Shown piece by piece: positions 35,099 to 49,666 of a stretch of DNA of 49,833 nucleotides (the stretch's first letter is position 1; every line of letters begins with the position of its first letter). Source of the DNA: a virus; IMG/VR virus record IMGVR_UViG_3300008050_000063, positions 1 to 49,833 of that record. One strand, 5' to 3'. The position numbers and the translations under genes were made by a program. The notes under the pieces were generated by a model. The model worked only from the letters and a program-made list of their open reading frames with translations. It was not told the DNA's origin and ran no database searches.

Positions 35099-35272
35099 TT
35101 ATTTCTGTAATTCAACCCAGATTTGATCTATTAATGTTTCAGTAAATTCTATATAATTAATTTCCTCAATAACATCTGTTTTTCCACAAGCAGCTTCCAT
35201 ATCATATTTGATTCCTTGAAGCCTCCCTTCAACTCTTCCTAACAATCTTGCTATTTTTGTCTTGTCAATCAT
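35099..35272 (-). CDS. Hypothetical early protein, 57 aa
   Basis: ATG 35272 behind AAGGAGGTTAC, the strongest SD in the window. The SD sits in the loop of a TGTAAC/GTTACA hairpin. The peptide is helical (DKTKIARLLGRVEGRLQGIK, then acidic CGKTDVIEEINYIEF). No family recognised; short early proteins of this type often target host enzymes. First gene after the early promoter at 35305-35333. Confidence 0.65.
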   Translation of the reverse strand: MIDKTKIARLLGRVEGRLQGIKYDMEAACGKTDVIEEINYIEFTETLIDQIWVELQK

Positions 35273-35304
35273 CTTTGTAACCTCCTTATTTTTGTTACAT
35301 AGAT

Positions 35305-35333
35305 AATATATACCCTTGACATGTAGTTGTCAA
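35305..35333 (-). promoter_or_regulatory. Early sigma70 promoter of the RtcB operon
   Basis: TTGACA (35333-35328), 17-bp spacer, TATATT (35310-35305). Upstream ACCG and a run CTCTAAAAA match the two other early promoters, as does the start of the leader (TAACAAAAATAAGGAG). Confidence 0.85.
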
Positions 35334-35376
35334 ACGGTTTTTAGAGAATAAACGCAAAATAATTTAATTTAGGCAC

Positions 35377-35410
35377 AAAAAAACGAGATACAAATTAATG
35401 TACCTCGTTT
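35377..35410 (-). terminator. Intrinsic terminator after the major capsid gene
   Basis: On the - strand an 11-bp stem (one G-U pair; arms 35410-35400 and 35391-35381) with an 8-nt loop is followed by seven U residues. Lies 18 bases after the capsid stop and just before the early promoter. Confidence 0.85.
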
Positions 35411-35427
35411 AAAATATTCAAATACGA

Positions 35428-36879
35428 TTACGCGTATGTGAAAACTCTTCCGTTTGCTCCGTCGCCAAGTAAGGCAGTAGATGCAAGATCGTCAATTTTT
35501 ATCATGTGATAATAATTTTCTGCGCCGAAGAGATGGTTTAAGATTCCGTAACGAGTACGAACACCAAGTCTAGGACTAAAGTTTTCTTGTGCAGTAGCAC
35601 GCATTAATTGAACTGGAATATACGGACAGTAGATAATACCAGAATCATAAGGAGTAGGTCCTTTATATCCAAGTAAAATGTAGTTTCCGCCAGCAAATGT
35701 ATCTCTGTAAAGAGTAATGTTTCCATTACGAAGAACTCCAACTTTTGCAATTCCAACAGCTCCAGTATCAACTTGTGATGATGCTTGATCTAATGTGAAA
35801 TCTTGAAGTCTTTCTAATACTGTGCAAGATTTTGGATCAGCTATTGCGAAAGTAGCAGGTCCACGTCTTGTTGTAATAGCAATTTCATTAGCTTTGTCTA
35901 ATACGTGAGTATATAGAGTACCAATTCTTTCTAATTGATTACGTCCATCTGCAGATACAGGAGACCAAGTAGATGTACGTCCACCGTGAATCGCTGCTCT
36001 TACCATTTCAGTAAGTAATTGTCTATCGATTTCTTGTTGAATTTCATAAGAAATAATATTAACCATTTCGTCATCAACGTTAACACCTTGCATTGCCATC
36101 ATATCTTCTGCAATTTCAAGAGAGAAAGCAGCAGCTAATTTACGTGAACGCGCAGTAACTGTACCTTTTTCCATTTTTAGTTTCGCCATTGGCATATCTT
36201 CACCAACGTTCCACCATTCTGAATCTCCAAGTGTAGCACCTTTACCAGATTCGTCATAAGTATTAACACCTAAATTAGTTGCTACACCAGAACCAGCAAA
36301 TGCTTCCCAGAAATCTCCTGTTCCAGCATTACCAGATGCACCAGTAAATGAAGAATCAATTTCATTGTAACCAATTTCTTTATTGTTCATATCTGTAGCA
36401 CCTTTACCATTAACTCCGTATTGTCCACGAAGAGCAAAAGCGAATCCAACAGGACCGTTCATTGGTTGAACACCAACAACACTATGTGCTAAAAGGTTAG
36501 GAAAGATACGTCTAACTGTAGGGATAACTACTGAAGGCATTCTAGCATCATCAGTTGCTCCACCACCATATCCAGGTTGTGCTCCGCCACCTTGTGCAGC
36601 ATTACCAGCATCCACAGGATAATTTCCAAATGCTCCACCACCAGCAAGCGGTGATGCTGCAGATGATTGTGCACCCATTGAACCAAATTGCGACATTGCC
36701 GCAGGTCCAGAATATGCTTCTGTTAAGTTAGCTTCTTCAGAGTTCTGAAGTACTATAGCAGTTGCTAATGCAACCTGTTCGTTTTGAATTGGAGCTTGGC
36801 CATCAGCTTCTAAAAGCGGTTGCCATTTTTCCAAACATTTTTCCTGATAGTCAGGACCTAGTTGTTTATAAAAACCCAT
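35428..36879 (-). CDS. 23: Major capsid protein (gp23-like)
   Basis: 483 aa (T4: 521). Features of gp23: an N-terminal propeptide with L-T-E54/A55, the prohead-protease consensus, then HK97-fold regions (PVGFAFALRGQYG, KLAAAFSLEIAEDMMAMQG, DRQLLTEMVRAAI, and the RYGILNHLFGAENYY end). Known: hexamers build the shell; maturation follows cleavage. A Gly/Ala/Gln-rich stretch at about 56-107 is longer than usual. No exact late box precedes it; a weaker CAATAAATA lies at about 36914-36922 within gene 22. Strong terminator follows. Confidence 0.93.
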   Translation of the reverse strand: MGFYKQLGPDYQEKCLEKWQPLLEADGQAPIQNEQVALATAIVLQNSEEANLTEAYSGPAAMSQFGSMGAQSSAASPLAGGGAFGNYPVDAGNAAQGGGAQPGYGGGATDDARMPSVVIPTVRRIFPNLLAHSVVGVQPMNGPVGFAFALRGQYGVNGKGATDMNNKEIGYNEIDSSFTGASGNAGTGDFWEAFAGSGVATNLGVNTYDESGKGATLGDSEWWNVGEDMPMAKLKMEKGTVTARSRKLAAAFSLEIAEDMMAMQGVNVDDEMVNIISYEIQQEIDRQLLTEMVRAAIHGGRTSTWSPVSADGRNQLERIGTLYTHVLDKANEIAITTRRGPATFAIADPKSCTVLERLQDFTLDQASSQVDTGAVGIAKVGVLRNGNITLYRDTFAGGNYILLGYKGPTPYDSGIIYCPYIPVQLMRATAQENFSPRLGVRTRYGILNHLFGAENYYHMIKIDDLASTALLGDGANGRVFTYA

Positions 36880-36906
36880 TGTATAATTCCTTATATATTT
36901 TTATAA

Positions 36907-37827
36907 TTAGTGATTGTATTTATTGCTTCGTTTAAAACGATCAATGTAATGATTCATCATATCAGATGTATTACTATTTTTAGTTTTATCGTCAGCGGCA
37001 CCCTCAGTTAAGATTTTCTTAGGGTTAACATTAGAAGTTGCTTGATCTTTTAATTCTTCTCTTAAAAGAGTCTCATCTTCTTCGAAAGCTGCAATAGCTT
37101 CTTCAAACGTATCCTCAATTTCTTCTACGTCTGCATCTTTGAAACGAGTTTCAATATATGCACGCATTTTAGGATTTATGTTTTTACATTTATCTTCAAG
37201 CAAATTACTTGCTTCATTTCTTTTCAATTTTTTACTTAATTCAATTTTCTCAATCATCAAAGTATTAATCTCAGAATCTTTATCTTCAATAATTGTTTTA
37301 GCATCTTGAACAGCTTCTTTAATTTCTTCATCCATAGAGATTTCAGAGATTACAGCAATCTGTTTAATTTCGTTGAACATTTCTTCTAATTTTTCTAAAC
37401 GAACTGTATCTACGATTTTTCCTTCTGGAAGTTTATCTTCAATATAAACATCTAAGAAATCTGAAACTTTTCCTTCAAGTTCTTCCTGCATTCCATTTTC
37501 ATATTTTTCAACAACCTTTTTTAAACCAACAGTATGATCTTCATCAATTTTAGATAAAACACCTTCTAATAATTCAGTATGATCTTCATCAATTTTAGAT
37601 AAAACTTTGTTTAATGATTCAGTATGGTCTTCGTCAATTTTAGATACAACTTTATCTAAAAGAGCAATGTGTTTTTCGTCAACACTTTCTAAAGCTTCTT
37701 CAAATATTTTTTCTTTGTATTCTTTTATTTTTGTTTCAAAAAGAATGTTAAGCTCATCTTTTCTTTCTTCACTTATAACATCTTTTGATGATAAATCGTC
37801 TAAAAGCTTTTTAAATAAATCTTTCAT
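36907..37827 (-). CDS. 22: Prohead scaffold core protein (gp22-like) with 15-residue repeats
   Basis: 306 aa, highly charged, nearly all helical, between capsid and protease genes as in T4. Residues about 47-95 contain SKIDEDHTE-type units repeated three times plus degenerate copies on either side. Possible gp21 cut sites: V-I-S-E near residue 20 and I-L-T-E-G near 276. Ends HYIDRFKRSNKYNH. Known: gp22 forms the inner core that is degraded by gp21 on maturation. Assignment relies on position and composition. Confidence 0.85.
   Translation of the reverse strand: MKDLFKKLLDDLSSKDVISEERKDELNILFETKIKEYKEKIFEEALESVDEKHIALLDKVVSKIDEDHTESLNKVLSKIDEDHTELLEGVLSKIDEDHTVGLKKVVEKYENGMQEELEGKVSDFLDVYIEDKLPEGKIVDTVRLEKLEEMFNEIKQIAVISEISMDEEIKEAVQDAKTIIEDKDSEINTLMIEKIELSKKLKRNEASNLLEDKCKNINPKMRAYIETRFKDADVEEIEDTFEEAIAAFEEDETLLREELKDQATSNVNPKKILTEGAADDKTKNSNTSDMMNHYIDRFKRSNKYNH
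37531..37650 (-). repeat. 45-bp tandem repeat in the scaffold gene
   Basis: Units begin near 37531, 37576 and 37621 (each starts AGTATG on the + strand) and repeat ATCTTCATCAATTTTAGAT with few changes. The 15-codon period keeps frame and heptad-like helix spacing, so copy number could vary without frameshift. Confidence 0.8.
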
Positions 37828-37830
37828 ATA

Positions 37831-37965
37831 TTAAATCTCCGTTTTTATTTTAGATTTTTTACTTTCGTATTTTTCTGTTAAAGCTTCTTGTAGACGTTCT
37901 TTAGCATTTTTTAAATTGCCTTGACGTAATTCTTTAACAAATTTTCCAATGTTCTTATTTTCCAT
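37831..37965 (-). CDS. Small prohead core protein (gp67-like), 44 aa
   Basis: ATG 37965 with SD AAGGAAA. The sequence FVKELRQGNLKNAKERLQEAL is like the N-terminal helix of T4 gp67 (AIKSNDLVAARKLFAEAM), and its place between protease and scaffold genes is the T4 place for gp67/gp68. Known: gp67 helps shape the prohead core and is cut to small peptides. Shorter than gp67 (80 aa), with no acidic tail. Late box at 38005-38012 lies 40 bases upstream. Confidence 0.65.
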   Translation of the reverse strand: MENKNIGKFVKELRQGNLKNAKERLQEALTEKYESKKSKIKTEI

Positions 37966-38004
37966 TTTTGGATTTCCTTCAACATTTTTTTATTTTATTA
38001 TATT

Positions 38005-38012
38005 TATTTATA
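38005..38012 (-). promoter_or_regulatory. Late promoter for gp67-like and gene 22
   Basis: TATTTATA on + strand, overlapping the last codons of the protease gene. Probably reads through to gene 23 because no closer exact box is present. Confidence 0.7.
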
Positions 38013-38718
38013 AGTTTATGTCCCTTATGAACTGCTTAAAAATATCATAAACGAATTCCCCACCTATATCTGTTTTTACAGAATGAGAAGGAATATTTTT
38101 TAAACCTTCGGTAAATTTATCGAAAGCTACTTCAATTATATCTCCATGATTATCAATCATAAATTCTTTTGATTCCATTATTCCATCCACAAAGCAACCA
38201 GGCCCAGATGGATCCACAACAGTGTCTACAGTAATCATCTTGTATTTTGTGTCAATTCTAGATGATTCATTAATTTCTCCAACACCTCTTGTTGATTTAC
38301 CAATCTTTCCACCGTGTTGTAATAATGAAGCAACTATATCACCATTTGGAGTTCCAATAATCCCAAATCTTGGGTCACTCGCCATAACAATTGATTCACC
38401 AATCCAGATTTTTCCATCTTGTTTAAGTGATAAAATTCTGTCACTTGCAAGTTTAGGATCAATTTTAGTGGACTGCGGATGATTTAACTCACCGTATGCT
38501 CTTTTTGTATCAATCCAATTTTTTTGAAAATCAGGGATAGTTTTTTCTTCTAACAACTTCTGAGAATATACTCTACCATTTGCGTTCTTAGTTTCAGAAA
38601 CAACATACGGTCCTTTAATTTTTATAGATAAAGGTTTTGTTGTGTTTTGTTGTTCAATGATTATATCATAATCAAAATTATCGAATAATGTTTCATATAT
38701 TAATTTAAGCGGCTTCAT
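38008..38718 (-). CDS. 21: Prohead core protease (gp21-like, family S80)
   Basis: 236 aa (T4: 212). Catalytic pattern of family S80/U9: AYGELNHPQS (H80) and KIGKSTRGVGEIN (S142), in a herpesvirus-assemblin-like fold; NANGRVYS and DPRFGIIGT are also typical. The N-terminus (MKPLKLIYET) carries an I-Y-E/T self-processing site. Known: cuts after (L/I)-x-E in gp23, scaffold and internal proteins. It therefore predicts which N-terminal tags in this window are removed. Confidence 0.92.
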   Translation of the reverse strand: MKPLKLIYETLFDNFDYDIIIEQQNTTKPLSIKIKGPYVVSETKNANGRVYSQKLLEEKTIPDFQKNWIDTKRAYGELNHPQSTKIDPKLASDRILSLKQDGKIWIGESIVMASDPRFGIIGTPNGDIVASLLQHGGKIGKSTRGVGEINESSRIDTKYKMITVDTVVDPSGPGCFVDGIMESKEFMIDNHGDIIEVAFDKFTEGLKNIPSHSVKTDIGGEFVYDIFKQFIRDINL

Positions 38719-38737
38719 GTTTATCCTGTTTTTATTT

Positions 38738-38755
38738 ATTTATATTTATTTATAA
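38738..38755 (-). promoter_or_regulatory. Tandem late promoters for the protease gene
   Basis: Two TATTTATA boxes (+ strand) at 38738-38745 and 38748-38755, ten bases apart, about one helical turn, so they lie on the same DNA face. Confidence 0.65.
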
Positions 38756-39499
38756 GTTTATAAGTGTCTTACAATTTTTAAAATGCCATCTATGCATATT
38801 ACTTATCCCACCTATTTTATCACAATGTGGGCATTTAACTATATTCTGTTTTTTTCCTGATTTAGATTGACTTATTTTTGCTTTTGTTTTTTCAGAAACA
38901 AATTTATTTTTAGAAGATTGACTTATTTTTGCTTTTGTTTTTTCAGAATGTTTTCGATTTTTGAATTTTGTGCTCATTTCTTTACTTCTTTCTTTTAAAA
39001 TTTGTGTGTCAATATTTGGATTTAATCTACATTTAGCACCATGCCATCGTGCATACATGTGAGGATGTATTTTTTTATCACAGAAAATACATTTTTTGTG
39101 TTTTCTATTTTTGGCAGCTATTTTCATGTTATCAACACATTTTTTAGTTTTTCTGATTCCTTTAAATTGATTTGATAATCTTATACTAAATTCTTTTTTA
39201 ATTTTTTCATACATAGAAGAAGTTACTTTGTACTTTCTTTTATTGTTATTACTTGTTTTAGTTACGAACATCCAAAACGAATATATTATTTTATTATTGT
39301 TTGGATAAATTTTACAAAGTAAATGATGAGCAACAAAATGAGCTTTTGCTGTTAAATTAACTAAATTTTCTTTATTGTTTGTGCCTCCTATAGATTTAGG
39401 TAAGATGTGATGTGATTCAAGATATATATCTTGGCCTTTTTTAAAATTTAAAATTTTGTGTTTTTTAATAATCAAATCGTAGAGTTTCTGATAGTTCAT
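38750..39499 (-). CDS. HNH homing endonuclease paralogue, 249 aa
   Basis: HNH core SHHILPKSIGGTNNKENLVN plus KAHFVAHHL, almost the same as the enzyme at 29678. Two zinc-finger-like clusters (CIFCDKKIHPHMYARWHGAKC and CPHCDKIGGISNMHRWHF...C) flank NUMOD3-like units HSEKTKAKISQSSK and VSEKTKAKISQSKSG. It sits between portal and protease, where T4 has genes 67/68. Its mRNA start is under a promoter-in-hairpin switch (39509-39571). The pair shows one endonuclease family has entered the head region twice. Confidence 0.9.
   Translation of the reverse strand: MNYQKLYDLIIKKHKILNFKKGQDIYLESHHILPKSIGGTNNKENLVNLTAKAHFVAHHLLCKIYPNNNKIIYSFWMFVTKTSNNNKRKYKVTSSMYEKIKKEFSIRLSNQFKGIRKTKKCVDNMKIAAKNRKHKKCIFCDKKIHPHMYARWHGAKCRLNPNIDTQILKERSKEMSTKFKNRKHSEKTKAKISQSSKNKFVSEKTKAKISQSKSGKKQNIVKCPHCDKIGGISNMHRWHFKNCKTLINL
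38864..38947 (-). repeat. 33-bp direct repeat in the HNH paralogue
   Basis: AGATTGACTTATTTTTGCTT and the bases following occur at 38864-38896 and 38915-38947, 51 bp (17 codons) apart. They encode the tandem SEKTKAKISQS units. Confidence 0.8.
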
Positions 39500-39508
39500 A
39501 TATTCTTT

Positions 39509-39571
39509 CCTTTAATGTGTGGTTGAATATATTTATAAGAAAAAGAGAACAACCCTGCACCACACTAAAGG
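39509..39571 (-). promoter_or_regulatory. RNA switch: late promoter inside hairpin masking the HNH SD
   Basis: On the - strand CCTTTAGTGTGGT (39571-39559) pairs with ACCACACATTAAAGG (39523-39509): 7 + 6 bp with a 2-nt bulge. The SD (AAAGGAAA) falls in the second arm and TATAAATA (39537-39530) in the loop, with the predicted start at about 39523, the foot of the second arm. Upstream transcripts fold and hide the SD; loop-promoter transcripts cannot. Same logic as 1928-1989 and as T4 I-TevI. Confidence 0.7.
39530..39537 (-). promoter_or_regulatory. Late promoter for the HNH paralogue
   Basis: Exact late box in the hairpin loop described for 39509-39571; 31 bases before ATG 39499. Confidence 0.7.
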
Positions 39572-39592
39572 AAAAATCCACGGGTTGTTCTC
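39540..39592 (-). terminator. Terminator after the portal gene
   Basis: - strand: GAGAACAACCC (39592-39582) pairs perfectly with GGGTTGTTCTC (39555-39545), followed by five U residues. The 26-nt loop contains the first arm of the HNH switch. The two hairpins interleave, so in a read-through RNA both together would make a pseudoknot or compete. Confidence 0.75.
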
Positions 39593-39601
39593 AAAATTAT
39601 C

Positions 39602-41263
39602 TTACCAGTCTTCTTCCTCTTCTTTATGAAGTGGATTTGGGTCACCCTGTTCTTCTGCTAAATTTGCGTGGAAATTAATAATTCCTTGCTGTACAGCATC
39701 TTCTTCTAAACGTTTCCAATTTTCTGCAATATCTTCTTTGCTCCAACCTAAATATCTTTCCATACAGAATGTGTTAGAAAATTCTTCCCTATCTGCCATA
39801 GATGTATATTGTTCGATGATTATCGTCATTCTTTGTTGTTCTTCATATCTGTCAAATGACGATGGTGGAGTAAATCTGATTTTTAAATCTTTGTCTTTTA
39901 TTTTCTGTTTATCCCAGATTCCTTTAAGTTTAAGATGTGTTTTGAATCCATCCTTCAAACCTAACGCAAATCTGTTATGAAGTCTCATTATAAATTTTGC
40001 AAATCTGTATTCTTCATAATTGATAGATGTAGATCGTTCTAAATTATCTGTAGGTTCTGCATATCTGTTATATGGAACTTTCAATGAAATATATAATTTT
40101 CTTAAGAAATAGTTTAAATCTTCCAATTCACCTAAATTCTGTCCTCCACCAAGTGTAGTTACCTCTGTACCGCTACCACCTTGTGACTTAACAAACCAAA
40201 AACTTTCAAGCATTGAATGTGGATCATAATCATTAGCAATTGTCGCAGTGTTAGGATTATATACCTTTTTAGTGTTATACTTCTGCATCATTTTCATAAC
40301 TTCTTCTTCAGCTTTAGTTCTTGTTGCATTACCTACATCAACATTGAAAACTAATCTTTCTGGCGCTCTAACTAACCTGTATATTATAATAGAATCTTCA
40401 ATCATTGCAAGTTGGTTGTATGCTCTCCGTGCTCTTTCAAGAACAGGAAATACAAATGAACCAATTGAATTATAAAGTCCTGTATTAATATAAGTAATCT
40501 GTTCAGATGGTAAGAACACCGCTGATTCATCGTTTAAAGCATCATAAGTATTAAGTGTCTGTATATTGACATTACCTACACTGTATTTGCTAGACTTTTG
40601 TTTCTGTTCACTCTCATGAGCATTGATATTAACATCACCGTCATTTACAAATACAGTAAGACCAACACGTTGTTGTGTTGTCATATCGTATGTAAATTCA
40701 TAACTTTCTGATGGTAGAAATTTTATATCTAAAACTCCAGCAGTTGGTTCAGTTTTTGAAACAATATTTTCCCAAGCAAGTTCACCGTCGATACAAAACA
40801 ATCTCATATATTCAAACATTCGATTCTCAAAATCAAACAAGTTTATATATTCACTCCAGGCATTGTTAATTTCTTTTTGATCTAAGTCTCCGAATTTAGA
40901 TGGAAGTTTTAAGTTCAATAAATTATCATTTTCATCTGATGTAATTGCGGAATCACATATTTCATCAATTGCATCCCCAACTTCAGGAAATTCTGCCATT
41001 CTTCTATATGATGAAAGTCTTACTACTTTATTTGTTGAAATGGAACCATACATTGTGTCTCCCATTCCTTGACCCATTTGCCCACCTGCTGTACCAAATT
41101 CTTGGTTGTCAATATTTTTAAAGTATTTAGCAACAGCTGACCAATCATTGACATTAACTTCTTGTGCAAGTTTGTCAAAAATTTCATATTTATAATTTGT
41201 TTTTTCAGCATCCTTAGATGAAAATCTAAACACACCGTCCATAATGGTATTATACCAGCTCAT
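39602..41263 (-). CDS. 20: Portal vertex protein (gp20-like)
   Basis: 553 aa (T4: 524). Typical regions: AEFPEVGDAIDEICDSAIT, IKFLPSESYEFTYD, LERARRAYNQLAMIEDSIII, VRAPERLVFNVDVGN, GGGQNLGELEDLNYFLRKLY and DNLERSTSINYEEYRFAKF, all as in gp20 proteins. Known: dodecameric ring that starts prohead assembly, conducts DNA and binds terminase and neck. A Lys/Ser-rich insertion near 215-225 probably lies on a surface loop. Late box 41294-41301 is upstream. Confidence 0.95.
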   Translation of the reverse strand: MSWYNTIMDGVFRFSSKDAEKTNYKYEIFDKLAQEVNVNDWSAVAKYFKNIDNQEFGTAGGQMGQGMGDTMYGSISTNKVVRLSSYRRMAEFPEVGDAIDEICDSAITSDENDNLLNLKLPSKFGDLDQKEINNAWSEYINLFDFENRMFEYMRLFCIDGELAWENIVSKTEPTAGVLDIKFLPSESYEFTYDMTTQQRVGLTVFVNDGDVNINAHESEQKQKSSKYSVGNVNIQTLNTYDALNDESAVFLPSEQITYINTGLYNSIGSFVFPVLERARRAYNQLAMIEDSIIIYRLVRAPERLVFNVDVGNATRTKAEEEVMKMMQKYNTKKVYNPNTATIANDYDPHSMLESFWFVKSQGGSGTEVTTLGGGQNLGELEDLNYFLRKLYISLKVPYNRYAEPTDNLERSTSINYEEYRFAKFIMRLHNRFALGLKDGFKTHLKLKGIWDKQKIKDKDLKIRFTPPSSFDRYEEQQRMTIIIEQYTSMADREEFSNTFCMERYLGWSKEDIAENWKRLEEDAVQQGIINFHANLAEEQGDPNPLHKEEEEDW

Positions 41264-41293
41264 ATTTTTTAATCTCTCTTTTGTTATTGTAAT

Positions 41294-41301
41294 TATTTAT
41301 A
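41294..41301 (-). promoter_or_regulatory. Late promoter for the portal gene
   Basis: TATTTATA (+ strand), 31 bases before ATG 41263; divergent with the box at 41321-41328. Confidence 0.75.
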
Positions 41302-41320
41302 TCATAGAAGTATTCTAGTT

Positions 41321-41328
41321 TATAAATA
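41321..41328 (+). promoter_or_regulatory. Late promoter for gene 15 and the packaged-protein operon
   Basis: TATAAATA 33 bases before the TTG start at 41361; SD AAAGGAG. Confidence 0.75.
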
Positions 41329-41360
41329 TATTTAACAAAACTAAATTAAAGGAGTTTTAA

Positions 41361-42332
41361 TTGAAAACTCGTTCATATAATTCGGAAATCAGGACAGCAA
41401 CTGCACAGACATTAGATGTTTTTAACAACATTATAATAGACAGAAGGGATTCTTCTGGTATTCAAAAATTGATAGAAGTTCCTTGCTACTACGGTAATAG
41501 AAGTAGAATTTTAAAATCTTTAGAAAACGAAAACAAAACTTTAAAAATTCCTCTAATTACTTTAGTCAAGGGTTCAATATCAAGAGATACGATGAGAGTA
41601 GCCGATACAAATAACGGACTATTATTCCAAAGTGGCACAGCTGACGGCTATGATGTACTCAAAAACAGACCACAACCAATGAATATAGAATTTGAATTAT
41701 CAATCATTACAAAATATGAAGATGATATGGACCAAATTATTTCAAATTTTATACCGATGATGTCACCAGATTTTTATGTTGTTTGGCCTAATCCAAAACA
41801 ACCTGGGAAAAATCTTAAATCCCAGGTAGTATGGGATGGTGCAATAAATTATGAATATCCTACTGATGTATCTGAAACTGATCCTTATAGAATAATTGTA
41901 ACAACTAACTTAGTGTATAAAACATGGATTTTTCCAGGATTGGGAGAGGATCCAGATGACGGTCCGTTGATTCGTAAAATGAATTTCTGTCCTAATCTCT
42001 TAAGTATTGGTGACGGTAACTTTGGATTGGATCGTTGGTATGATGTTCCTATGGGAATGACAATTAACGAATATCAGGAAAATGTTGTATGCGGAATGAT
42101 TAAAATGGATAGAACTCGTGCAAATTGGGATTGGTTACCTTGTTCAGTTTCTGGTATTCCTTCAGGATATCCTCCTTCAGGAAGTTCTTGGCCTCCATTG
42201 ACTGCTATAATTGCAGAGTGTTGTACATCAGGTTGTGCTACAGGTGACATAATAAGTTCAATACCACCAGAAGAATTAAATAATCTTAATTATCTTTTCA
42301 ATGAAAATAATATAATAATACTAGGAGAATAA
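41361..42332 (+). CDS. 15: Tail sheath stabiliser / tail completion protein (gp15-like), TTG start
   Basis: 323 aa (T4 gp15: 272). Aligns by eye with T4 gp15: YNSEIRTATAQTLDVFNNI and PMNIEFELSIITKYEDDMDQ correspond to gp15 YNSSFRRYATLMGDLFSNI and PIKMIYELSIFTRYEDDMFQ. Known: a hexamer capping the contractile tail where it meets the head. TTG at 41361 is supported by AAAGGAG at good spacing and no better ATG. A Cys/Pro-rich C-terminal extension (PSGYPPSGSSWPP, ECCTSGCATGD) is absent from T4. Confidence 0.85.
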   Translation: MKTRSYNSEIRTATAQTLDVFNNIIIDRRDSSGIQKLIEVPCYYGNRSRILKSLENENKTLKIPLITLVKGSISRDTMRVADTNNGLLFQSGTADGYDVLKNRPQPMNIEFELSIITKYEDDMDQIISNFIPMMSPDFYVVWPNPKQPGKNLKSQVVWDGAINYEYPTDVSETDPYRIIVTTNLVYKTWIFPGLGEDPDDGPLIRKMNFCPNLLSIGDGNFGLDRWYDVPMGMTINEYQENVVCGMIKMDRTRANWDWLPCSVSGIPSGYPPSGSSWPPLTAIIAECCTSGCATGDIISSIPPEELNNLNYLFNENNIIILGE

Positions 42333-42650
42333 ATGATAGCAGAAAATTTAGCAATAAATAATTTAAACATGTTGTATAATGAGATATGTTTTGCAGAAAA
42401 TATAAATAATAACATAAAAAATCCAAAAATAGCAAAGATGCTTATTGATTGGAAAAAGAAATGGTCTAAAACTAGTAATGATAAAGCTAAAGTTGATAAG
42501 ACACTTAAAAGATTAGCAGAACTATTAGGCAATAACTCAGAAAATACTGACTTGATGGATAGAATAACAAGTTATTTCATAATATTATCAAAAAATGTAA
42601 ATGATGAAGCAAATGACGAACTGTCAAAAATATTAGGAGAAATAGAATAA
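42333..42650 (+). CDS. Hypothetical helical protein, 105 aa
   Basis: Starts directly after the gp15 stop (TAA-ATG), SD AGGAGAA. All-helical and charged (KMLIDWKKKWSKTS, VDKTLKRLAELLG). Lacks the short (L/I)-x-E tag seen in its downstream neighbours. No family recognised; could be a small neck or core component. Its stop overlaps the next ATG (TAATG). Confidence 0.6.
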   Translation: MIAENLAINNLNMLYNEICFAENINNNIKNPKIAKMLIDWKKKWSKTSNDKAKVDKTLKRLAELLGNNSENTDLMDRITSYFIILSKNVNDEANDELSKILGEIE

Positions 42651-43543
42651 TGAAATTTGGAGAATTAACTTTAATATTTGAGGGTGGAAATGCTGTACAA
42701 GGTGTAACACGAATCAATCAAGAAAATGTGCAACAAACATTAGACAATATTATAAACGACTTGAAAAAGAACACTCCTCTAACTGAAAAGGACGTGGCAT
42801 CTCTAGGTTCAACAGGAAAGAAAAACAAAGGTGGTTCTTCTGGTGATATTGATTTAGCAGTTGACTTTACAAAATTGATTAGTAAGGATGTTAAAGATAT
42901 TGATGATGTTTTAATTTATCTAAAGAATCTAGCAGACAAGTTGTCAGCAAATACAAAACTATCTAAAGGTTTAGGTGAAGTTCATTTAGCATATCCTATT
43001 GCAAATGTTGATGGTAAACAGAAAGATGAATTTGTACAATTAGATTTTATGCCAACAGATAATATGGCATTTTCAAAATTTACATATTACTCACCTGCAG
43101 AATGGGAAAGTAAATACAAAGGATTGCATAGGAATATTTTGTTATTTGCAATACTTAAATTTTCAACCCTTGAGGTTCTTGAGACTGGTGAAGATGCTGA
43201 AGGTAATGAAGTCCCTGCTGTTGTTCGTAAAGTTTTACTTAATATGGGCAAAGGACTTTCAAAAGTTACTCAAAGTTTCAAAGGTAAAAAAGGTAATATA
43301 ACTAAAGGAAGTAAAGCAATCAAAAGAGAATTTTTATCAAATGATCCAGAATTGATTACAAATATGGTTGTAGGCTCAGAATTTGGTCCAAAAGATATAA
43401 TGAAGTATGATGACTTAATTAAAATTGTTTTAAGTTCAACATTCATTCATAAAAAACAACGTAACGAAATATTGAAAGAAGCAGGAAATACATTTATTAA
43501 ATTAGGTGCACTGTTTCCATCTGAATTAAAGGAATATGTATAA
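42650..43543 (+). CDS. Pol-beta-type nucleotidyltransferase with capsid-targeting-like N-terminus
   Basis: 297 aa. GSTGKKNKGGSSGDIDLAVD at 53-72 is the signature hG[S/G]...SGDhDh of the nucleotidyltransferase fold (catalytic D66, D68); FVQLDFMP later can supply the third acid. The N-terminus MKFGELTLIFEGG holds I-F-E/G, a gp21-type cut site. Known: the fold transfers NMP to nucleic acids, sugars, drugs or proteins. Inferred: carried in the capsid and delivered with DNA. Target unknown. Overlaps both neighbours by start/stop, next to the ligase-like gene. Confidence 0.7.
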   Translation: MKFGELTLIFEGGNAVQGVTRINQENVQQTLDNIINDLKKNTPLTEKDVASLGSTGKKNKGGSSGDIDLAVDFTKLISKDVKDIDDVLIYLKNLADKLSANTKLSKGLGEVHLAYPIANVDGKQKDEFVQLDFMPTDNMAFSKFTYYSPAEWESKYKGLHRNILLFAILKFSTLEVLETGEDAEGNEVPAVVRKVLLNMGKGLSKVTQSFKGKKGNITKGSKAIKREFLSNDPELITNMVVGSEFGPKDIMKYDDLIKIVLSSTFIHKKQRNEILKEAGNTFIKLGALFPSELKEYV

Positions 43544-44703
43544 TGAAATTTTCAATGCTCCTAGAAGCTTTAAACACTGATAAGAATTTTATTCTGAAAA
43601 TCAAAGCAATGAATAAAAAACAGATGGTTGAATTTATTAAAAAAATTGCACCTTATGTTAAAAATGGTAAAATAAATTCTACAGAATTAAATATAACAGA
43701 AAAAGTAGATGGGTCTAGTGTTAAAATATCTTGGTATAATGATGCTATTAATATTGAATCAAGTTATTCGGGTATGGTAAGTGATCCGAATGATTTCAAG
43801 AAAAATCCATTCGGTGAACCTTTTGCTGAGGTTCTGAAATATTATCAGAAAACATTTACAAAACAATTTAGAAAAACATTCGGTGATAAAAACTTTAAAG
43901 TTGTTGGAGAATTATTTTATACTAAAGATATTGAAACTGATAAAGATGGTTCTGTTACATTTGTAGCAACTAAATACAATCCAAAAATGTTAGGAAAAAT
44001 TGCAACGGTTGTGACATTTACTGCTTTAGAATATGATGGAAACTCTTTCTCAAAACCAAATAATAAAATACTAAAACAATTCAATAACATTTCTGATAAG
44101 AATGTTACTGTACAAACTATCAAAGAACTTAAATTCCAATCTGAAATTAATATGGACGTTCCTGTATTACAACAGATTCTGAAAAAACCTGAAAAAATAT
44201 TAGAAGATAAAGAATTGTTGGAAACTGTCCGTGCTGCGTTTATTGCAAGTTTTGGAGATGCATTAAAAAATGCAAAACAATATGAAGGTGATTTAAAATC
44301 TATTGGTTCTGTAATTGAAGGAATAGTTTTAGATTTAGGGGAACTTCAAGTGGCATTCCAAAATCCTGAATGGCAGAAAATGCATAAAGAACTATGGAAC
44401 ATACCTGAGATGATGGGAGAAATTGATAAAGAGTTTTATTTTGACATTATTGCTAAAAGATCAAAAGTCAGTGTTAAAAAATATTTACGACAAAATGGAT
44501 TTGATGAAGAATTAAGAAATAAACTTAAAACAGCAATTCCGGTACTGGTAAAGAAGTATAATAAACTAAAGGTGCCTCAAGATATACCTAAGAATTTGAA
44601 AAAAGGACAGGAAAAAGGATTGAAAAATAGAATGGCGCAAGTCAATAACCTAAGTGCAGATAGTGAACAATCACTTAAGCAATTTATAAATATGAAAGAT
44701 TAA
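43543..44703 (+). CDS. ATP-dependent nucleic-acid ligase-like protein with capsid-targeting-like N-terminus
   Basis: 386 aa. Motif I EKVDGSS with K54; motif Ia-like ESSYSGM (72-78); motif III VVGELFY (120-126); IIIa-like FTALEYDG; motif IV VIEGIVL (258-263). These are in covalent-nucleotidyltransferase (RNA/DNA ligase) order and spacing. The motif V lysines are not obvious (LQVAFQNPEWQKM), so activity is not certain. Starts MKFSMLLEA with L-L-E/A cut site. Inferred: packaged RNA or DNA repair ligase paired with the nucleotidyltransferase. Confidence 0.65.
   Translation: MKFSMLLEALNTDKNFILKIKAMNKKQMVEFIKKIAPYVKNGKINSTELNITEKVDGSSVKISWYNDAINIESSYSGMVSDPNDFKKNPFGEPFAEVLKYYQKTFTKQFRKTFGDKNFKVVGELFYTKDIETDKDGSVTFVATKYNPKMLGKIATVVTFTALEYDGNSFSKPNNKILKQFNNISDKNVTVQTIKELKFQSEINMDVPVLQQILKKPEKILEDKELLETVRAAFIASFGDALKNAKQYEGDLKSIGSVIEGIVLDLGELQVAFQNPEWQKMHKELWNIPEMMGEIDKEFYFDIIAKRSKVSVKKYLRQNGFDEELRNKLKTAIPVLVKKYNKLKVPQDIPKNLKKGQEKGLKNRMAQVNNLSADSEQSLKQFINMKD
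44685..44692 (+). promoter_or_regulatory. Late promoter for the 85-aa tagged protein
   Basis: TATAAATA within the last codons of the ligase-like gene, 27 bases before ATG 44719; SD AAAGGAAA. Confidence 0.65.
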
Positions 44704-44718
44704 AAAAAGGAAAATAAT

Positions 44719-44976
44719 ATGAAATTTGAAGAAAAAATAGAAACGTTACTTACAGAAGGATCATCAATGCATTCAGTTGGTAAAATCTTAGCAGTAATAG
44801 ATGCACAGTTAGCAGATTTAATTAAAGCAGTTAAAGGACAAAATGGTGCAGATGATGATGCTATAGAAAACTCTTCTGAGATAACTAAACCTGCAGCAGC
44901 ATTCCGTAAAGAACTGAAAAAATTAAAAAAATCCCACGGTAAAGAAGAGGTATGGTTTAGAGGATCATATAAATAA
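44719..44976 (+). CDS. Small tagged protein, 85 aa, capsid-internal candidate
   Basis: MKFEEKIETLLTEGSS has L-T-E/G, a very good match to the T4 prohead-protease site (cut after E13). The rest is helical (MHSVGKILAVIDAQLADLIKAV) with a basic end (KKLKKSHGKEEVWFRGSYK). No enzyme motif. Size and basic character are like T4 internal proteins IPI-IPIII, some of which counter host restriction. That role here is inference. Confidence 0.65.
   Translation: MKFEEKIETLLTEGSSMHSVGKILAVIDAQLADLIKAVKGQNGADDDAIENSSEITKPAAAFRKELKKLKKSHGKEEVWFRGSYK
44968..44975 (+). promoter_or_regulatory. Late promoter for the HxGH gene
   Basis: TATAAATA overlapping the stop of the 85-aa gene, 36 bases before ATG 45012. 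Confidence 0.7.
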
Positions 44977-45011
44977 AGATTTAACATAAAACCAGTTAAA
45001 GGAATAATAAA

Positions 45012-45599
45012 ATGAAATTTTTCGAACTTGAAAAATATTATATGATAGAAGATAAAAGAAAAACGGTTGCGGTTGTACCGGGTTCTTTTAAACCTCCTCA
45101 TGCAGGTCACTGGGATATGATTAAAAAATATTCAAAACAAGCAGATGAGGTTTTTGTAATAATTTCTGCACCTGGAAAACAAAAACGCACAACAAAAACT
45201 GGGAATGAAATTACTCCAAAAACAGCAGTTAAAATATTTGAAATTTTCAATAAAGCGACTGGATTAAAGAATGTAAAATTTATCATTTCAGATTCTCCGT
45301 CACCTGTCAAAGCTACTTATGATTATGTTGAATACGAATTAAAAGATGTTGATGTGTTGTTAGGTGCAAGTGACAAAGGTGGAGATTTTAAAAGATGGAT
45401 GAGCACTCCTAAATATTTTGCAGAACATAATCCGTCGGTTACTATTATTGATCCAAAGAAAGCGGCTGTGAAGGCATTTAAAAATGTCTCAGCATCAACT
45501 ATCCGAGACAATATAGACAACCACGAATTAATTAAAGAATTATTACCGACAGAATTATCAGAAAAAGATATAAATAAAATTATAGAAATATTGACATAG
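45012..45599 (+). CDS. HxGH nucleotidylyltransferase (NMNAT/cytidylyltransferase superfamily), tagged
   Basis: 195 aa. AVVPGSFKPPHAGHWDMI contains the HxGH nucleotide-binding motif (H30-A-G-H33). VSASTIRD (161-165) is the ISxTxxR-type second motif and DVLLGASDKGGDF lies between. Known relatives: NMN, phosphopantetheine, FAD and glycerol-3-phosphate nucleotidyltransferases. Similar proteins with short tags are found in other T4-like phages. The N-terminus MKFFELEKYYMIEDK has a weaker site (M-I-E/D). Inferred: cofactor or NAD-related reaction at the start of infection. Confidence 0.8.
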   Translation: MKFFELEKYYMIEDKRKTVAVVPGSFKPPHAGHWDMIKKYSKQADEVFVIISAPGKQKRTTKTGNEITPKTAVKIFEIFNKATGLKNVKFIISDSPSPVKATYDYVEYELKDVDVLLGASDKGGDFKRWMSTPKYFAEHNPSVTIIDPKKAAVKAFKNVSASTIRDNIDNHELIKELLPTELSEKDINKIIEILT

Positions 45600-45609
45600 G
45601 AATTCTAAA

Positions 45610-45909
45610 ATGAAATTTAAAGAAGCAATAAATTTTTACTTAACAGAAGCAAAAAAAATAACTATTGATATCGATATGGATTGGTCTGAAGAAAGAGCAA
45701 TTAAAAAATCTGCTATTAGATTCGGTATTAAAATAAAAGAAACGGGTAGAACTACCGCAGATATAACAGGACAACCAGAAGATATCAAAAAATATCTTTT
45801 AAGTTCTTACTATGGAATGGATGAAAAAGATATTGAAGAAATTTACCCAGAGCTGGGGAAAATTAATGAAAGTAAAAAAATTACCAAAGTCAGCGATTTT
45901 ATGTGTTAA
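45610..45909 (+). CDS. Tagged hypothetical protein, 99 aa
   Basis: MKFKEAINFYLTEAKK has L-T-E/A (cut after E13), identical to the site in the major capsid protein. The remainder alternates beta strand and helix (ITIDIDMDWSEERAIKKSA, TTADITGQPEDIKKYLLSS), a ferredoxin-like pattern, and is followed by an acidic EEIYPELGKI. No family recognised. SD AGGAATT. Inferred capsid-internal protein. Confidence 0.6.
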   Translation: MKFKEAINFYLTEAKKITIDIDMDWSEERAIKKSAIRFGIKIKETGRTTADITGQPEDIKKYLLSSYYGMDEKDIEEIYPELGKINESKKITKVSDFMC

Positions 45910-45911
45910 TT

Positions 45912-46124
45912 ATGGAAATACGTTTACCACAAACTACTTTTAAATCTGTACCAAGCAGAGCATGGGTTTATATATCATTAGGTATTATGATTCTATTGAT
46001 TTTGGTAGGTGCAGCATTTTATAAACACGGTGGGATATATATCAAAACCGAAAAAGAATCATTAAAAGAATCTAAAAATAAAATTGAACAGATTAATAAA
46101 GGAATAAATGAAAATATTAAATGA
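45912..46124 (+). CDS. Single-span membrane protein, 70 aa
   Basis: I chose ATG 45912 (MEIRLPQTTFK); a GTG at 45903 is also in frame. One clear membrane span, WVYISLGIMILLILVGAAFY, follows a short N-terminal segment, then a Lys/Glu coiled-coil tail. It is the only membrane protein in the tagged-protein run; candidates are a holin-like or injection-channel component. The start of the next gene overlaps its end by 17 bases. Confidence 0.55.
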   Translation: MEIRLPQTTFKSVPSRAWVYISLGIMILLILVGAAFYKHGGIYIKTEKESLKESKNKIEQINKGINENIK

Positions 46125-46797
46125 AACAAAAGTAGACGGAAAAATTAAGAAAATTGTGAAGGTGAAAACCCCAGCAATGATGAGTGATAGTGCTAAATTA
46201 AAACAATCATTTTCTGGGTGGTATATTCCTAAAGAAAGTATGTTAATTTATTTTAATTTTGGTTATCATCGTAGATGGATGAATAGATTTTGGCCTGGTT
46301 TAAACGCACGTGATGTCGCTAGCAGGGGATTAACAGAACCAGCGATAAAAGAAAAAGACAAAGGTACTGACAAAATAATTAAGAAATATAAAGACAAAAT
46401 TAAAAAACTTAAAGACTTTAAATGGGACGGTTTAAATGCGGTCAATGTTGATTATGAGGATTTGTATGCATTAGGTTGGATGCGTATTAACTTATACAGT
46501 AAAGAATTAACAATTACCCATGATTCAAAAAACCCAGATGCTGCAAAAAATTTACTATTGTGGTGTTCTGAACAAAAAATGCCGGTTTTTTCTGCTACAA
46601 TTTATGATAATTCTCATTATACATCAATTGATCTCACAGGTGAAGAATTTAAACAATTGTCTGCAACGATCAACACAAAAAATGTTACAGGTGATTTAAT
46701 TGACCAAGTAAGAAATCAGATGTTTGGTCCTGGATTTTACACTGATGAGAAAATTACATTTGCGGATGTTGTTAATTTCTTACTTGAAAAAAAATAA
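46108..46797 (+). CDS. Hypothetical tagged-type protein, 229 aa
   Basis: MKILNETKVDGK has L-N-E/T at residues 4-6, a possible but very short protease tag. The body has aromatic-rich strands (SGWYIPKESMLIYFNFGYH), a Lys-rich helix (KGTDKIIKKYKDKIKKLKD), and LGWMRINLYSKELTITHDS. No family recognised. Last gene before convergence with the gp44 operon. Confidence 0.55.
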   Translation: MKILNETKVDGKIKKIVKVKTPAMMSDSAKLKQSFSGWYIPKESMLIYFNFGYHRRWMNRFWPGLNARDVASRGLTEPAIKEKDKGTDKIIKKYKDKIKKLKDFKWDGLNAVNVDYEDLYALGWMRINLYSKELTITHDSKNPDAAKNLLLWCSEQKMPVFSATIYDNSHYTSIDLTGEEFKQLSATINTKNVTGDLIDQVRNQMFGPGFYTDEKITFADVVNFLLEKK

Positions 46798-46907
46798 CCC
46801 ATCTCTCTGCCGCTAGACAAGATAAAAATAAAGTCCTTGGTCAATATTGTATAAAGATTTAAACGGTCTCAGTATAGGTTACAGAAGGACTAGTAACGGA
46901 AATAAAC
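46798..46907. other. Intergenic stretch with 7-bp closing stem
   Basis: 110 bases between convergent operons. AGTCCTT (46832-46838) pairs with AAGGACT (46885-46891), enclosing 46 nt. It looks like a structured RNA or relic, but is too short and lacks T- and D-arms for a tRNA. Confidence 0.35.
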
Positions 46908-46942
46908 AAAGGGAATGATACATAAATATCATTCCCTTTTTT
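46908..46942. terminator. Bidirectional intrinsic terminator
   Basis: AAAGGGAATGATA (46908-46920) pairs perfectly with TATCATTCCCTTT (46927-46939) around CATAAA. A run of six T closes the + side and TTTGTTT the - side. Separates the late + operon from the early - operon that ends with gp44. Confidence 0.9.
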
Positions 46943-46957
46943 AGTGAATCAAAAAAC

Positions 46958-47881
46958 TTATTTCTTGATTTGAAGCAACATTGCGTAAAATTGTACTTCT
47001 GAATCCAAACAAACTGCCATACGATACATCGATTCAGCAATAACGAGTTGGGTTTTTCCACCTTTTGCGTCATCAAAGTATTTCTCAAAGAGTAATTTTG
47101 CAAGCATTTCATAATCTCCAGAAAATTTATCTTCATTGCTGATTAAAAATTCTCTGATTTTAAGAACATTGTCAGCTTTATATATTCCCTCAATTATTTT
47201 CTCAATTTCAGCAGATTCGTTTGAACCCTTATTTTCAAGTGTTCCTGAAATTGACCATTGTTCAAGATTATTAACAATACTTCTTACATCAGGTAATTTT
47301 CTTTTAATAACTTCTTGAGCAAATTCGGTGAGTGTTTCAGCATCAAATTTAACTTTTTCTGCTTGTAATATAGTAACACAACGTTTTAATACATCATCAA
47401 TTGTAAATCTCAATTTGATAGGTGAACATCTGGATTGTATTGGTTCAATAATCTTATTAAGATAATTACAAGTTAATATAAAACGAGTATCATCAGATGA
47501 TGTTTCAATTATATTTCTTAATGCACCTTGTGCAGATGCTCCTGTTCCTGCATTACTTGACAATGAATCTGCTTCATCAAGTATGACAATTTTCAAACCG
47601 TCAAGTGCAACACTGTCACAGAATTCTTTAACTTTTGTTCTCACTGTCTCAACATTATTATCAACAGATGCGTTAATGTAAAGTAATGTTGCATTCAATT
47701 CATTAGATATGATTTTTGCTAAAGTTGTTTTTCCTATTCCTGCTCTGCCTGCTAACAATAGATTACAGATGGTTTTTTTCTTAAGAAAACCTGAAATCAC
47801 TGAACGGATATCTTCATTCAACACCAAATCTTTTAAAATTGCAGGGCGGTATTTCTCCACCCATTGATATTCTAAACTCAT
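46958..47881 (-). CDS. 44: Clamp-loader large subunit (gp44-like AAA+ ATPase)
   Basis: 307 aa (T4 gp44: 319). Starts EYQWVEKYRP as in RFC/gp44; Walker A GRAGIGKTT (45-53), Walker B VILDEAD (99-105), sensor 1 FILTCNYLNKII and the SRC motif (150-152). Known: four gp44 with one gp62 load the gp45 clamp onto primer-template DNA. Neither gp45 nor gp62 is in the window. A TATAAT box without a clear -35 lies at 47914-47909, a possible middle promoter. SD AAAGGAGAAA. Confidence 0.95.
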   Translation of the reverse strand: MSLEYQWVEKYRPAILKDLVLNEDIRSVISGFLKKKTICNLLLAGRAGIGKTTLAKIISNELNATLLYINASVDNNVETVRTKVKEFCDSVALDGLKIVILDEADSLSSNAGTGASAQGALRNIIETSSDDTRFILTCNYLNKIIEPIQSRCSPIKLRFTIDDVLKRCVTILQAEKVKFDAETLTEFAQEVIKRKLPDVRSIVNNLEQWSISGTLENKGSNESAEIEKIIEGIYKADNVLKIREFLISNEDKFSGDYEMLAKLLFEKYFDDAKGGKTQLVIAESMYRMAVCLDSEVQFYAMLLQIKK

Positions 47882-47937
47882 ATATTTCTCCTTTTATTTT
47901 CTTTTAATATTATACATCAATAAATGATAAATTTGAA

Positions 47938-48153
47938 CTATTCGATCATTTCACCGATAGTTCTCATATTTTCAAATCCTTGAGGGTCAAGAATACAATC
48001 AGTTCCGAAAAACAAATTCATAGGAACCACATTCCCGGATTTCCAATGTTCCTTTATTTTTTCAAAGATATCTAATTTTCTTTTTGATTTTAGAATATGT
48101 TGGTGAATTTTTTCATCAGCATCGGTTGTTACGTAAAAATAAGTATATTTCAT
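47938..48153 (-). CDS. Hypothetical early protein, 71 aa
   Basis: Beta start (KYTYFYVTTDADEKIHQHIL), a basic helix (KSKRKLDIFEKIKEHW), and an acidic end. SD AAGGAAA. No family recognised; a T4 gp45/gp62 match was looked for and not seen. Between the 224-aa gene and gp44 in an early operon. Confidence 0.6.
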   Translation of the reverse strand: MKYTYFYVTTDADEKIHQHILKSKRKLDIFEKIKEHWKSGNVVPMNLFFGTDCILDPQGFENMRTIGEMIE

Positions 48154-48164
48154 TTTGTGTTTCC

Positions 48165-48839
48165 TTAATTTATTTTTTTCATTATTAGACGTTGAAAACA
48201 GACAGTGTGCATATTTGCTACAGCAACATCAGGGGATGTATATCCTGGCACATAATCAGAAAGATATAACTCATTATATTTAGGGATTCTAAATTCACCT
48301 GTATAACAAAATCCCTCAATATATGGTAGTTTAATACCAGCGATAGTTTCTTCTTTTATATCAATTTTTTTAACATCAACTGAATCAATTAAAAACTGTG
48401 CATCACCGTCCATTGATTCAAGTGCAACTATTGTTTGATGAGGTCTTTCCGGGTGGGTTACTTTTGCTAACACTTTACAAGCAACGTGCATTTGCGGCGC
48501 CAAATTATTATATTTTGTTAAACCTATAGAATCAGCAAAAGTAGTGTAAGAATCATAAACTCCACCAAGATCAGTAATCTCAACTTTGTCACCTATATTA
48601 TAATTTAATATCCAAGAACAACTTTTAGAACTGATTAAATATTGTTTTCCGTCTCTCTCAATAGCAAAGATTTCATCCCTTGTATTAGGATGACGAAATA
48701 CAGAAAGTAGATTGAATTTTAATCCTATTTCAGGGTAAATATTATATTGATAATTTGTCAAATTTGCTTTTAACGCTAATCCCTCAGATGTTGAATAACA
48801 TCCAAGATTTTCGTTTACGATTACTTTTTCTATTTTCAT
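48165..48839 (-). CDS. Hypothetical early protein, 224 aa
   Basis: Contains two related halves: SVFRHPNTRDEIFAIERDGK with QYLISSKSCSW, and AKVTHPERPHQTIVALESMD with DAQFLIDSVD. This is an internal duplication of a roughly 100-residue beta unit (V.(H)P......I.A(I/L)E..... QFLI.S). No family recognised. First gene after the - strand early promoter, SD AAGGAGTTA. Confidence 0.65.
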   Translation of the reverse strand: MKIEKVIVNENLGCYSTSEGLALKANLTNYQYNIYPEIGLKFNLLSVFRHPNTRDEIFAIERDGKQYLISSKSCSWILNYNIGDKVEITDLGGVYDSYTTFADSIGLTKYNNLAPQMHVACKVLAKVTHPERPHQTIVALESMDGDAQFLIDSVDVKKIDIKEETIAGIKLPYIEGFCYTGEFRIPKYNELYLSDYVPGYTSPDVAVANMHTVCFQRLIMKKIN

Positions 48840-48870
48840 TTTTATAACTCCTTATTTTTGTTACATAGAT

Positions 48871-48899
48871 AATATATACCCTTTTGTGTGAGATGTCAA
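48871..48899 (-). promoter_or_regulatory. Early sigma70 promoter of the gp44 operon
   Basis: TTGACA (48899-48894), 17-bp spacer, TATATT (48876-48871). Upstream CTCCAAAAACCG matches the other early promoters; lies inside the 42-bp inverted repeat. Confidence 0.85.
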
Positions 48900-49074
48900 A
48901 CGGTTTTTGGAGAAAAAATGCATTTTTTTTCAAGAGATTGCTATATTGATCTATAATACTACAAGCTGAATAAACTCACAGAAAATGAGAGAATTCAAAC
49001 AACCTTCAAAGAAAAGTTTCTTGTGTACAACATGAAAAAAAATGCATTTTTTCTCCAAAAACCGTTTGACATCT
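48891..49074. repeat. Perfect 42-bp inverted repeat around divergent early promoters
   Basis: 48891-48932 is the exact reverse complement of 49033-49074. Each arm holds the -35 box, the ACCG/CTCC upstream element and an A-tract with ATGCAT. The 100-bp spacer is AT-rich with few signals (TATAAT-like at about 48953-48958). In single strand it could form a large cruciform or hairpin. Possibly an early control region or origin. Confidence 0.9.
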
Positions 49075-49093
49075 CGTCCCAAGGGTGTATATT
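49066..49093 (+). promoter_or_regulatory. Early sigma70 promoter of the last gene
   Basis: TTGACA (49066-49071), 16-bp spacer, TATATT (49088-49093); the leader begins with TTGTAACAAAAATAA as in the other early units. Confidence 0.85.
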
Positions 49094-49141
49094 AATCTTG
49101 TAACAAAAATAAAGATGACAAATTTTAACAAAGGAGAAAAA

Positions 49142-49666
49142 ATGAAACATCTATTTAACATCGTCGTAAACGGAACTGGGGAAACACACGGAAAGAATTA
49201 CAAGTCATTAAATTCGGCCCAAGTTGCTTGTACTAAATTGTATCGTGAGATGCAAGCTGAAGAAGACCCTGCAAGATTTACACTCGGGATCAATGAAATG
49301 AAACTTGAGTATGTTAAAACTCATGAGATTTATTCTTTATCGAAACGAGATAGATATCGTTTGAAAGTTTTGGAAAACAAAATTCACCGTGATGCTGTTA
49401 AGGAACAGAAGGAAATAGGAAAATGGGAAAGAGCAAATACTCGCTTTGAAGCACGCCAGGCAAAACTCGCTGTTAAAGCTGTTAAAGCTGCTGAAGCTGA
49501 ATACAAATCAGCTGTCCGTGAAAACAAGCAAGTTGCAAAATGGGCTAAATCAAATGAGATTTATCATGACAGAGCGACAAAAAGAACTATCAAGGAGATT
49601 GCAGAAATAACTAAATGGAGAAAATATGATATCGAGTATCATAAAAATTTAGAAACAGTAAAATAA
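49142..49666 (+). CDS. Early basic coiled-coil protein, 174 aa
   Basis: ATG 49142 with SD AAAGGAG is preferred; the frame extends to 49085 but that lies in the promoter leader. After a beta start (LFNIVVNGTGETHGKNYKS) with EEDPARFTLGIN, the chain is one long, highly charged helix (LKVLENKIHRDAVKEQ, AKLAVKAVKAAEAEYKSAV, repeated REN/AKW..SNE units of about 30 residues). The repeats suggest a rod that binds nucleic acid or a host complex. No family recognised. Confidence 0.65.
   Translation: MKHLFNIVVNGTGETHGKNYKSLNSAQVACTKLYREMQAEEDPARFTLGINEMKLEYVKTHEIYSLSKRDRYRLKVLENKIHRDAVKEQKEIGKWERANTRFEARQAKLAVKAVKAAEAEYKSAVRENKQVAKWAKSNEIYHDRATKRTIKEIAEITKWRKYDIEYHKNLETVK

Follow-up and report, generated by a model that had tools for sequence, protein, structure and literature searches.

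We found that a perfect inverted repeat in the window, the 49,833-nt stretch of viral DNA analysed here (IMG/VR record IMGVR_UViG_3300008050_000063), coincides with what is probably (at a probability of roughly 0.7, judged from the sequence) a divergent pair of strong sigma70-type phage promoters of the early class, P(-) and P(+), with upstream halves homogenised by local copying. Host RNA polymerase would use both promoters early in infection, with P(-) driving a 224-aa gene and then gp44, and P(+) driving a 174-aa gene. Each promoter is a copy of a multi-site cassette, composed of an UP-element-like A/T-rich part, AAAAACCG, TTGACA, TATATT and a fixed leader, GTAACAAAAATAA. The features are as follows.

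48890..48932, minus strand: arm 1, the upstream half of P(-), with the A/T palindrome, AAAAACCG, the -35 box and TCTC; complementary to arm 2 at 43/43 positions
48933..49032, no strand: spacer between the arms, 100 bp
49033..49075, plus strand: arm 2, the upstream half of P(+)
48913..48928, no strand: A/T palindrome AAAAAATGCATTTTTT with TGCA at its centre, in arm 1; a mirror copy lies in arm 2
48894..48899, minus strand: -35 box TTGACA of P(-)
48871..48876, minus strand: -10 box TATATT of P(-), at 17-bp spacing
48848..48865, minus strand: leader of P(-), conserved TGTAACAAAAATAAGGAG with ribosome-binding site
48165..48839, minus strand: gene downstream of P(-), 224 aa, at the gp45 position upstream of gp44, of no detectable family
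49066..49071, plus strand: -35 box TTGACA of P(+)
49088..49093, plus strand: -10 box TATATT of P(+), at 16-bp spacing
49099..49141, plus strand: leader of P(+), TGTAACAAAAATAA and then the ribosome-binding site AAAGGAG before the ATG at 49142
49142..49666, plus strand: gene downstream of P(+), a 174-aa Lys/Glu-rich protein of no known family
35270..35366, minus strand: third cassette copy (P35k), TTGACA at 35333-35328 and TATATT at 35310-35305, before a 57-aa ORF (35099-35272)

Anatomy of the Divergent Promoter Pair

The best two promoter matches in the region lie on opposite strands, TTGACA-17-TATATT at 48899-48871 (minus) and TTGACA-16-TATATT at 49066-49093 (plus), in agreement with the divergent early promoters proposed in the first-pass annotation. 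Outward from the centre, both sides show the same order of an A/T palindrome around TGCA, CTCC, AAAAACCG, a single T and TTGACA, followed by a gap of 16 or 17 bp before TATATT and the leader, which contains TGTAACAAAAATAA; the arms do run from the A-tract to the -35 box, as that annotation had stated. When TTGACA is numbered as -35 to -30, AAAAA occupies -44 to -40 in both arms. The repeat is perfect, as first described, over 43 bp rather than 42 bp, with 100% complementary arms lying 100 bp apart. The parts from promoter spacer to leader had been described as different between the two sides, which is only partly right, as the repeat picks up again outside the arms (48849-48883 / 49081-49115) at 83%, including the identical TGTAACAAAAATAA leader. 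The 100 bp between the arms (48933-49032) contain no ORF of note and gave no Rfam match.

The length of the repeat is exceptional for this DNA. With arms within 1 kb, the second-longest perfect inverted repeat in the window is 17 bp, and the longest in each of 30 dinucleotide shuffles of the window was 12-16 bp. Among other phage loci (1,716,258 bases), the longest perfect pair at a spacing of 30-500 was 21 bp, a base rate that is a lower bound because such repeats are probably under-represented in short-read assemblies.

Probable Assignment to the Early Class

T4-like early promoters carry an A-rich element at -40 to -44 (PMC1524935), and the early promoters of T4 combine UP, -35 and -10 elements (PMC2988021). 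The cassette resembles the early promoters of T4, RB49, Aeh1 and 44RR (PMC1524935, PMC2988021) in its several genomic copies, its strong sigma70-type boxes spaced within 16-18 bp, its A-rich -40 to -44 and its location before non-structural genes, with late-type TATAAATA boxes before structural genes. It differs from them in several ways: TTGACA takes the place of GTTTAC, TGn is absent, the leader TGTAACAAAAATAA is conserved, most copies carry a TGCA-centred A/T palindrome further upstream, and two copies stand here back to back with identical upstream halves. T4 itself has a TGn extended -10, and conservation of the GT-rich stretch varies among relatives (PMC1524935). No TG precedes the -10 box of either P(-) or P(+), and we therefore describe the pair as early-promoter-like, of T4 type, rather than as T4 promoters.

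A TTGACA -35 box is found instead of the MotA box at -30 that replaces it in T4 middle promoters, and no T4-type late promoter (TATAAATA at -13 to -6) was found before the genes of P(-) and P(+). In the window, TATAAATA lies 26-44 bp upstream of gp17, gp20, gp21 and other genes, and is absent before the P(-) gene, the P(+) gene and the 57-aa ORF at 35.3 kb. Its total of 25 is within the range of base-shuffled sequences (mean 18), so that its position, not its number, carries weight. The occurrence of late boxes at structural genes but not here supports, rather than proves, an early class for the cassette promoters.

Genes at the Site and the Phage

The window encodes Gp23 (Pfam E 1e-80) and a T4-type terminase, and the identity to cyanophage and pelagiphage proteins is ~32% for gp23 and ~36% for gp44; it is part of a divergent marine-type T4-like phage. 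In the direction of P(-), the 224-aa gene is followed by a 71-aa ORF and gp44 (phrog_168, E 1e-65). The 224-aa gene could not be identified as gp45: it gave no Pfam, PHROG or PDB match, and when it was compared at profile level with six clamps, annotated or syntenic, the probability was 0.1%. Its single-sequence structure model had a pLDDT of 35, and a comparable gene before gp44 is not present in L100, the closest relative by gp44 (54%).

Several other repeats were observed in the window. Two related homing-endonuclease-like genes in opposite orientation (29678-30403 and 38750-39499) share 77% identity over 203 nt, and both starts are preceded, at ~37 bp, by a late-type TATAAATA box. Coding repeats of 72 to 75 nt are present at 14834-15328 and 23800-24099, in surface-protein-like genes that repeat the motif DTSSVxxMxxMFxxCxxFNQ, and a 45-nt coding repeat (SKIDEDHT...) occurs three times at 37530-37664, in a scaffold-like gene at the gp22 position before gp23.

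The Promoter Cassette Family

The cassette was found in six copies: three in the window, one in contig L119 (3300025133_000876) and two, L180a and L180b, in contig L180 (3300025133_001461), both contigs being from the same sample as the independent contig L072 discussed below. Over the -10 box and leader, P35k is identical to P(-) at 36/36 positions. When the window was scanned with a profile built from the six copies, including the three that it recovers, exactly the three known sites were obtained at 67-73 bits, as compared with at most 8.4 bits in five base shuffles. Searches of annotated phages, plasmids, IMG/VR and GTDB genomes gave no relatives of the site beyond contigs of sample 3300025133, and the other database matches were rejected as unrelated chance matches to short promoter words. 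A comparison of relatives across IMG/VR, phage records and GTDB genomes yielded only the near-identical L072, and no less perfect state of the arms was found there.

The L119 copy precedes a peptide deformylase gene, and this contig also encodes UvsX and a gp41-type helicase; genes for a tail sheath and a sigma factor are found on L180. Both contigs are probably pieces of the same phage as the window, a link based on their common sample and cassette and on the complementary T4 genes that they carry. The 236-aa phage sigma factor of L180 (L180:3783-4493) has recognisable regions 2, 3 and 4 (Pfam), and is possibly a gp55 counterpart that retains region 4. Immediately ahead of its -35 region, the L180a promoter (L180:2690-2735) contains two ATGCATTTTTT units that together form an inverted repeat (GGGAAAAAATGCAT/ATGCATTTTTTCCC). 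In three leaders (48840-48865, 35270-35300 and L119:2450-2476), a weak 6-bp stem (UGUAAC/GUUACA) with the ribosome-binding site in or beside the loop can form, in one of them preserved via a G-U pair. A structured leader RNA was nevertheless rejected, as the other copies are without the hairpin and the energies are ordinary.

Origin of the Arm Identity

The six copies were compared in a gapped, hand-made alignment of 44 upstream and 32 downstream columns. Apart from the pair P(-)/P(+), the -10/leader half of the family is nearly invariant, and the upstream half shows 8-24 differences in 44 columns; P(-), P35k, L119 and L180a have 0 differences over the 32 downstream columns and 8-20 over the 44 upstream columns. 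The comparison of P(-) with P(+) reverses this pattern, with 0 upstream and 5 downstream differences. The contrast with this pair was examined both for P(-) vs L119 (8 upstream, 0 downstream; Fisher p 0.0008) and for P(-) vs P35k (11 upstream, 0 downstream; Fisher p 0.0002), in tests that are post hoc and treat sites that are not independent. The upstream counts depend on the hand-made alignment: among the L119 differences, several are indels or positions within the promoter spacer. Otherwise L119 is close to the arms in its upstream half, and part of the arm identity is, as far as the alignment indicates, family resemblance. P(+) shares the 16-bp spacing and TATATTAATCTTGTAAC with L180b, unlike the other four copies.

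A family-wide constraint would guard the downstream half, and hence does not account for identical upstream halves. Strong constraint, one of the causes put forward in the first-pass annotation, accordingly fails as a family-wide cause, since the other copies tolerate at least 8 upstream differences; recent copying or gene conversion, which it had offered as well, is favoured, the upstream half being normally variable among the six copies. A copying event is probable from the comparison of paralogous copies within what is probably one phage. The local copying would have taken one of two routes, a duplication of the upstream element in inverted orientation, or template-switch correction of one arm while the strand was folded into a stem of 43 bp with a 100-nt loop. 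On either route, the arm identity would record past replication or recombination, and no protein reading both arms would be required.

Template switching is known to perfect imperfect inverted repeats (quasipalindromes), an effect first reported for yeast CYC1 and for rIIB of phage T4 (PMC7202029, PMC8604942). As in quasipalindrome correction (Ripley 1982, cited in PMC7202029 and PMC8604942), the nearby inverted copies are fully complementary over a defined stretch and have different flanks, and, as in a quasipalindrome homogenised by template switching, the arms are identical where the sister sequences differ and the flanks have diverged. Unlike in such correction, the arms (43 bp) and the loop (100 nt) are long, the loop being longer than the spacers of up to 70 examined in PMC8604942, and the event is deduced from sister promoters rather than observed as a mutation.

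Alternative Explanations

An alternative explanation, which we consider unlikely, is that selection has kept the arms identical, with a phage or host protein binding the TGCA-centred palindromes and co-regulating the two genes, perhaps through a loop that spans the 100 bp. Consistent with this, AAATGCATTT is confined within the window to the two arms and has one full occurrence in the L180 locus, at the L180a promoter, and TGCAT units are found twice in L180a and once in L119. However, the palindrome AAATGCATTT is absent or broken in P35k (TTTTGCGTTTATT) and L180b (ATGAATAAAA), both of which retain the -35 box, the -10 box and the leader, and an UP element would also look like an A/T tract at the palindrome position. 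Since the TGCA palindrome is present in four of the six copies, it is dispensable for the cassette in general, and could matter where it is present. No more probable is the proposal that the paired TGCA palindromes form an operator linking the divergent transcripts, with the arms kept identical for equal affinity to a phage regulator; we know of no operator-type regulatory switch of this kind in T4-like phages.

We regard it as quite improbable that the hairpin or a cruciform is itself functional, for instance as a replication origin where transcription diverges. The single-stranded fold of the region reaches -74 kcal/mol, as compared with -21 for shuffles (z -16), but this is what any perfect inverted repeat gives, and with a 100-nt loop the extrusion of a cruciform from duplex DNA is unlikely. 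The GC skew changes sign at the site, but the change tracks gene direction. No origin signatures were seen at the site beyond A/T richness and transcriptional divergence, and neither a MotA-type box nor iterons were seen there. The T4 origins oriE, oriF and oriG are likewise A/T-rich sites near transcription divergence, and oriE uses, and needs, an early promoter (PMC3016281); in contrast to these origins, the present site is without a middle-mode promoter and iterons. Nothing specific was found in favour of the shared operator, the functional cruciform or the origin.

The least probable explanation, to which we give very little weight, is that the inverted repeat is an assembly artefact from the joining of different promoter copies, as the independent contig L072 (IMGVR 3300025133_001273, 13,727 bp), which matches window positions 35323-49049 at 13721/13727 bases (99.96%), runs in the same order through arm 1 and the full spacer and ends 17 nt into arm 2, the two arms have different flanks, and each promoter precedes its own gene. 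Up to the end of L072, the two assemblies agree on the inverted arrangement. On the other side, L072 starts and stops within promoter copies, and of its six differences two, at the extreme left end, change TTGACAACTA to TTGACAGCTG (promoter strand), which is the L180a sequence. This switch from P35k to L180a sequence (L072:1-15; window 35323-35337) is a small assembly chimera at a repeated promoter. The ends of L072 and its left-end L180a bases indicate that the cassette breaks or confuses assembly in sample 3300025133.

Implications

Taken together, the site is a control region of an ordinary kind, of interest for its recombination history, and not a new kind of switch or origin. The divergent pair with upstream halves probably homogenised by local copying provides a natural case of promoter halves with separate histories, the downstream half being constant genome-wide and the upstream half apparently copied between neighbours, and arm homogenisation in phages becomes testable through relatives. 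The cassette, with its fixed leader, also serves as a promoter signature by which scattered contigs and early genes of this uncultured marine lineage of T4-like phages become recognisable.
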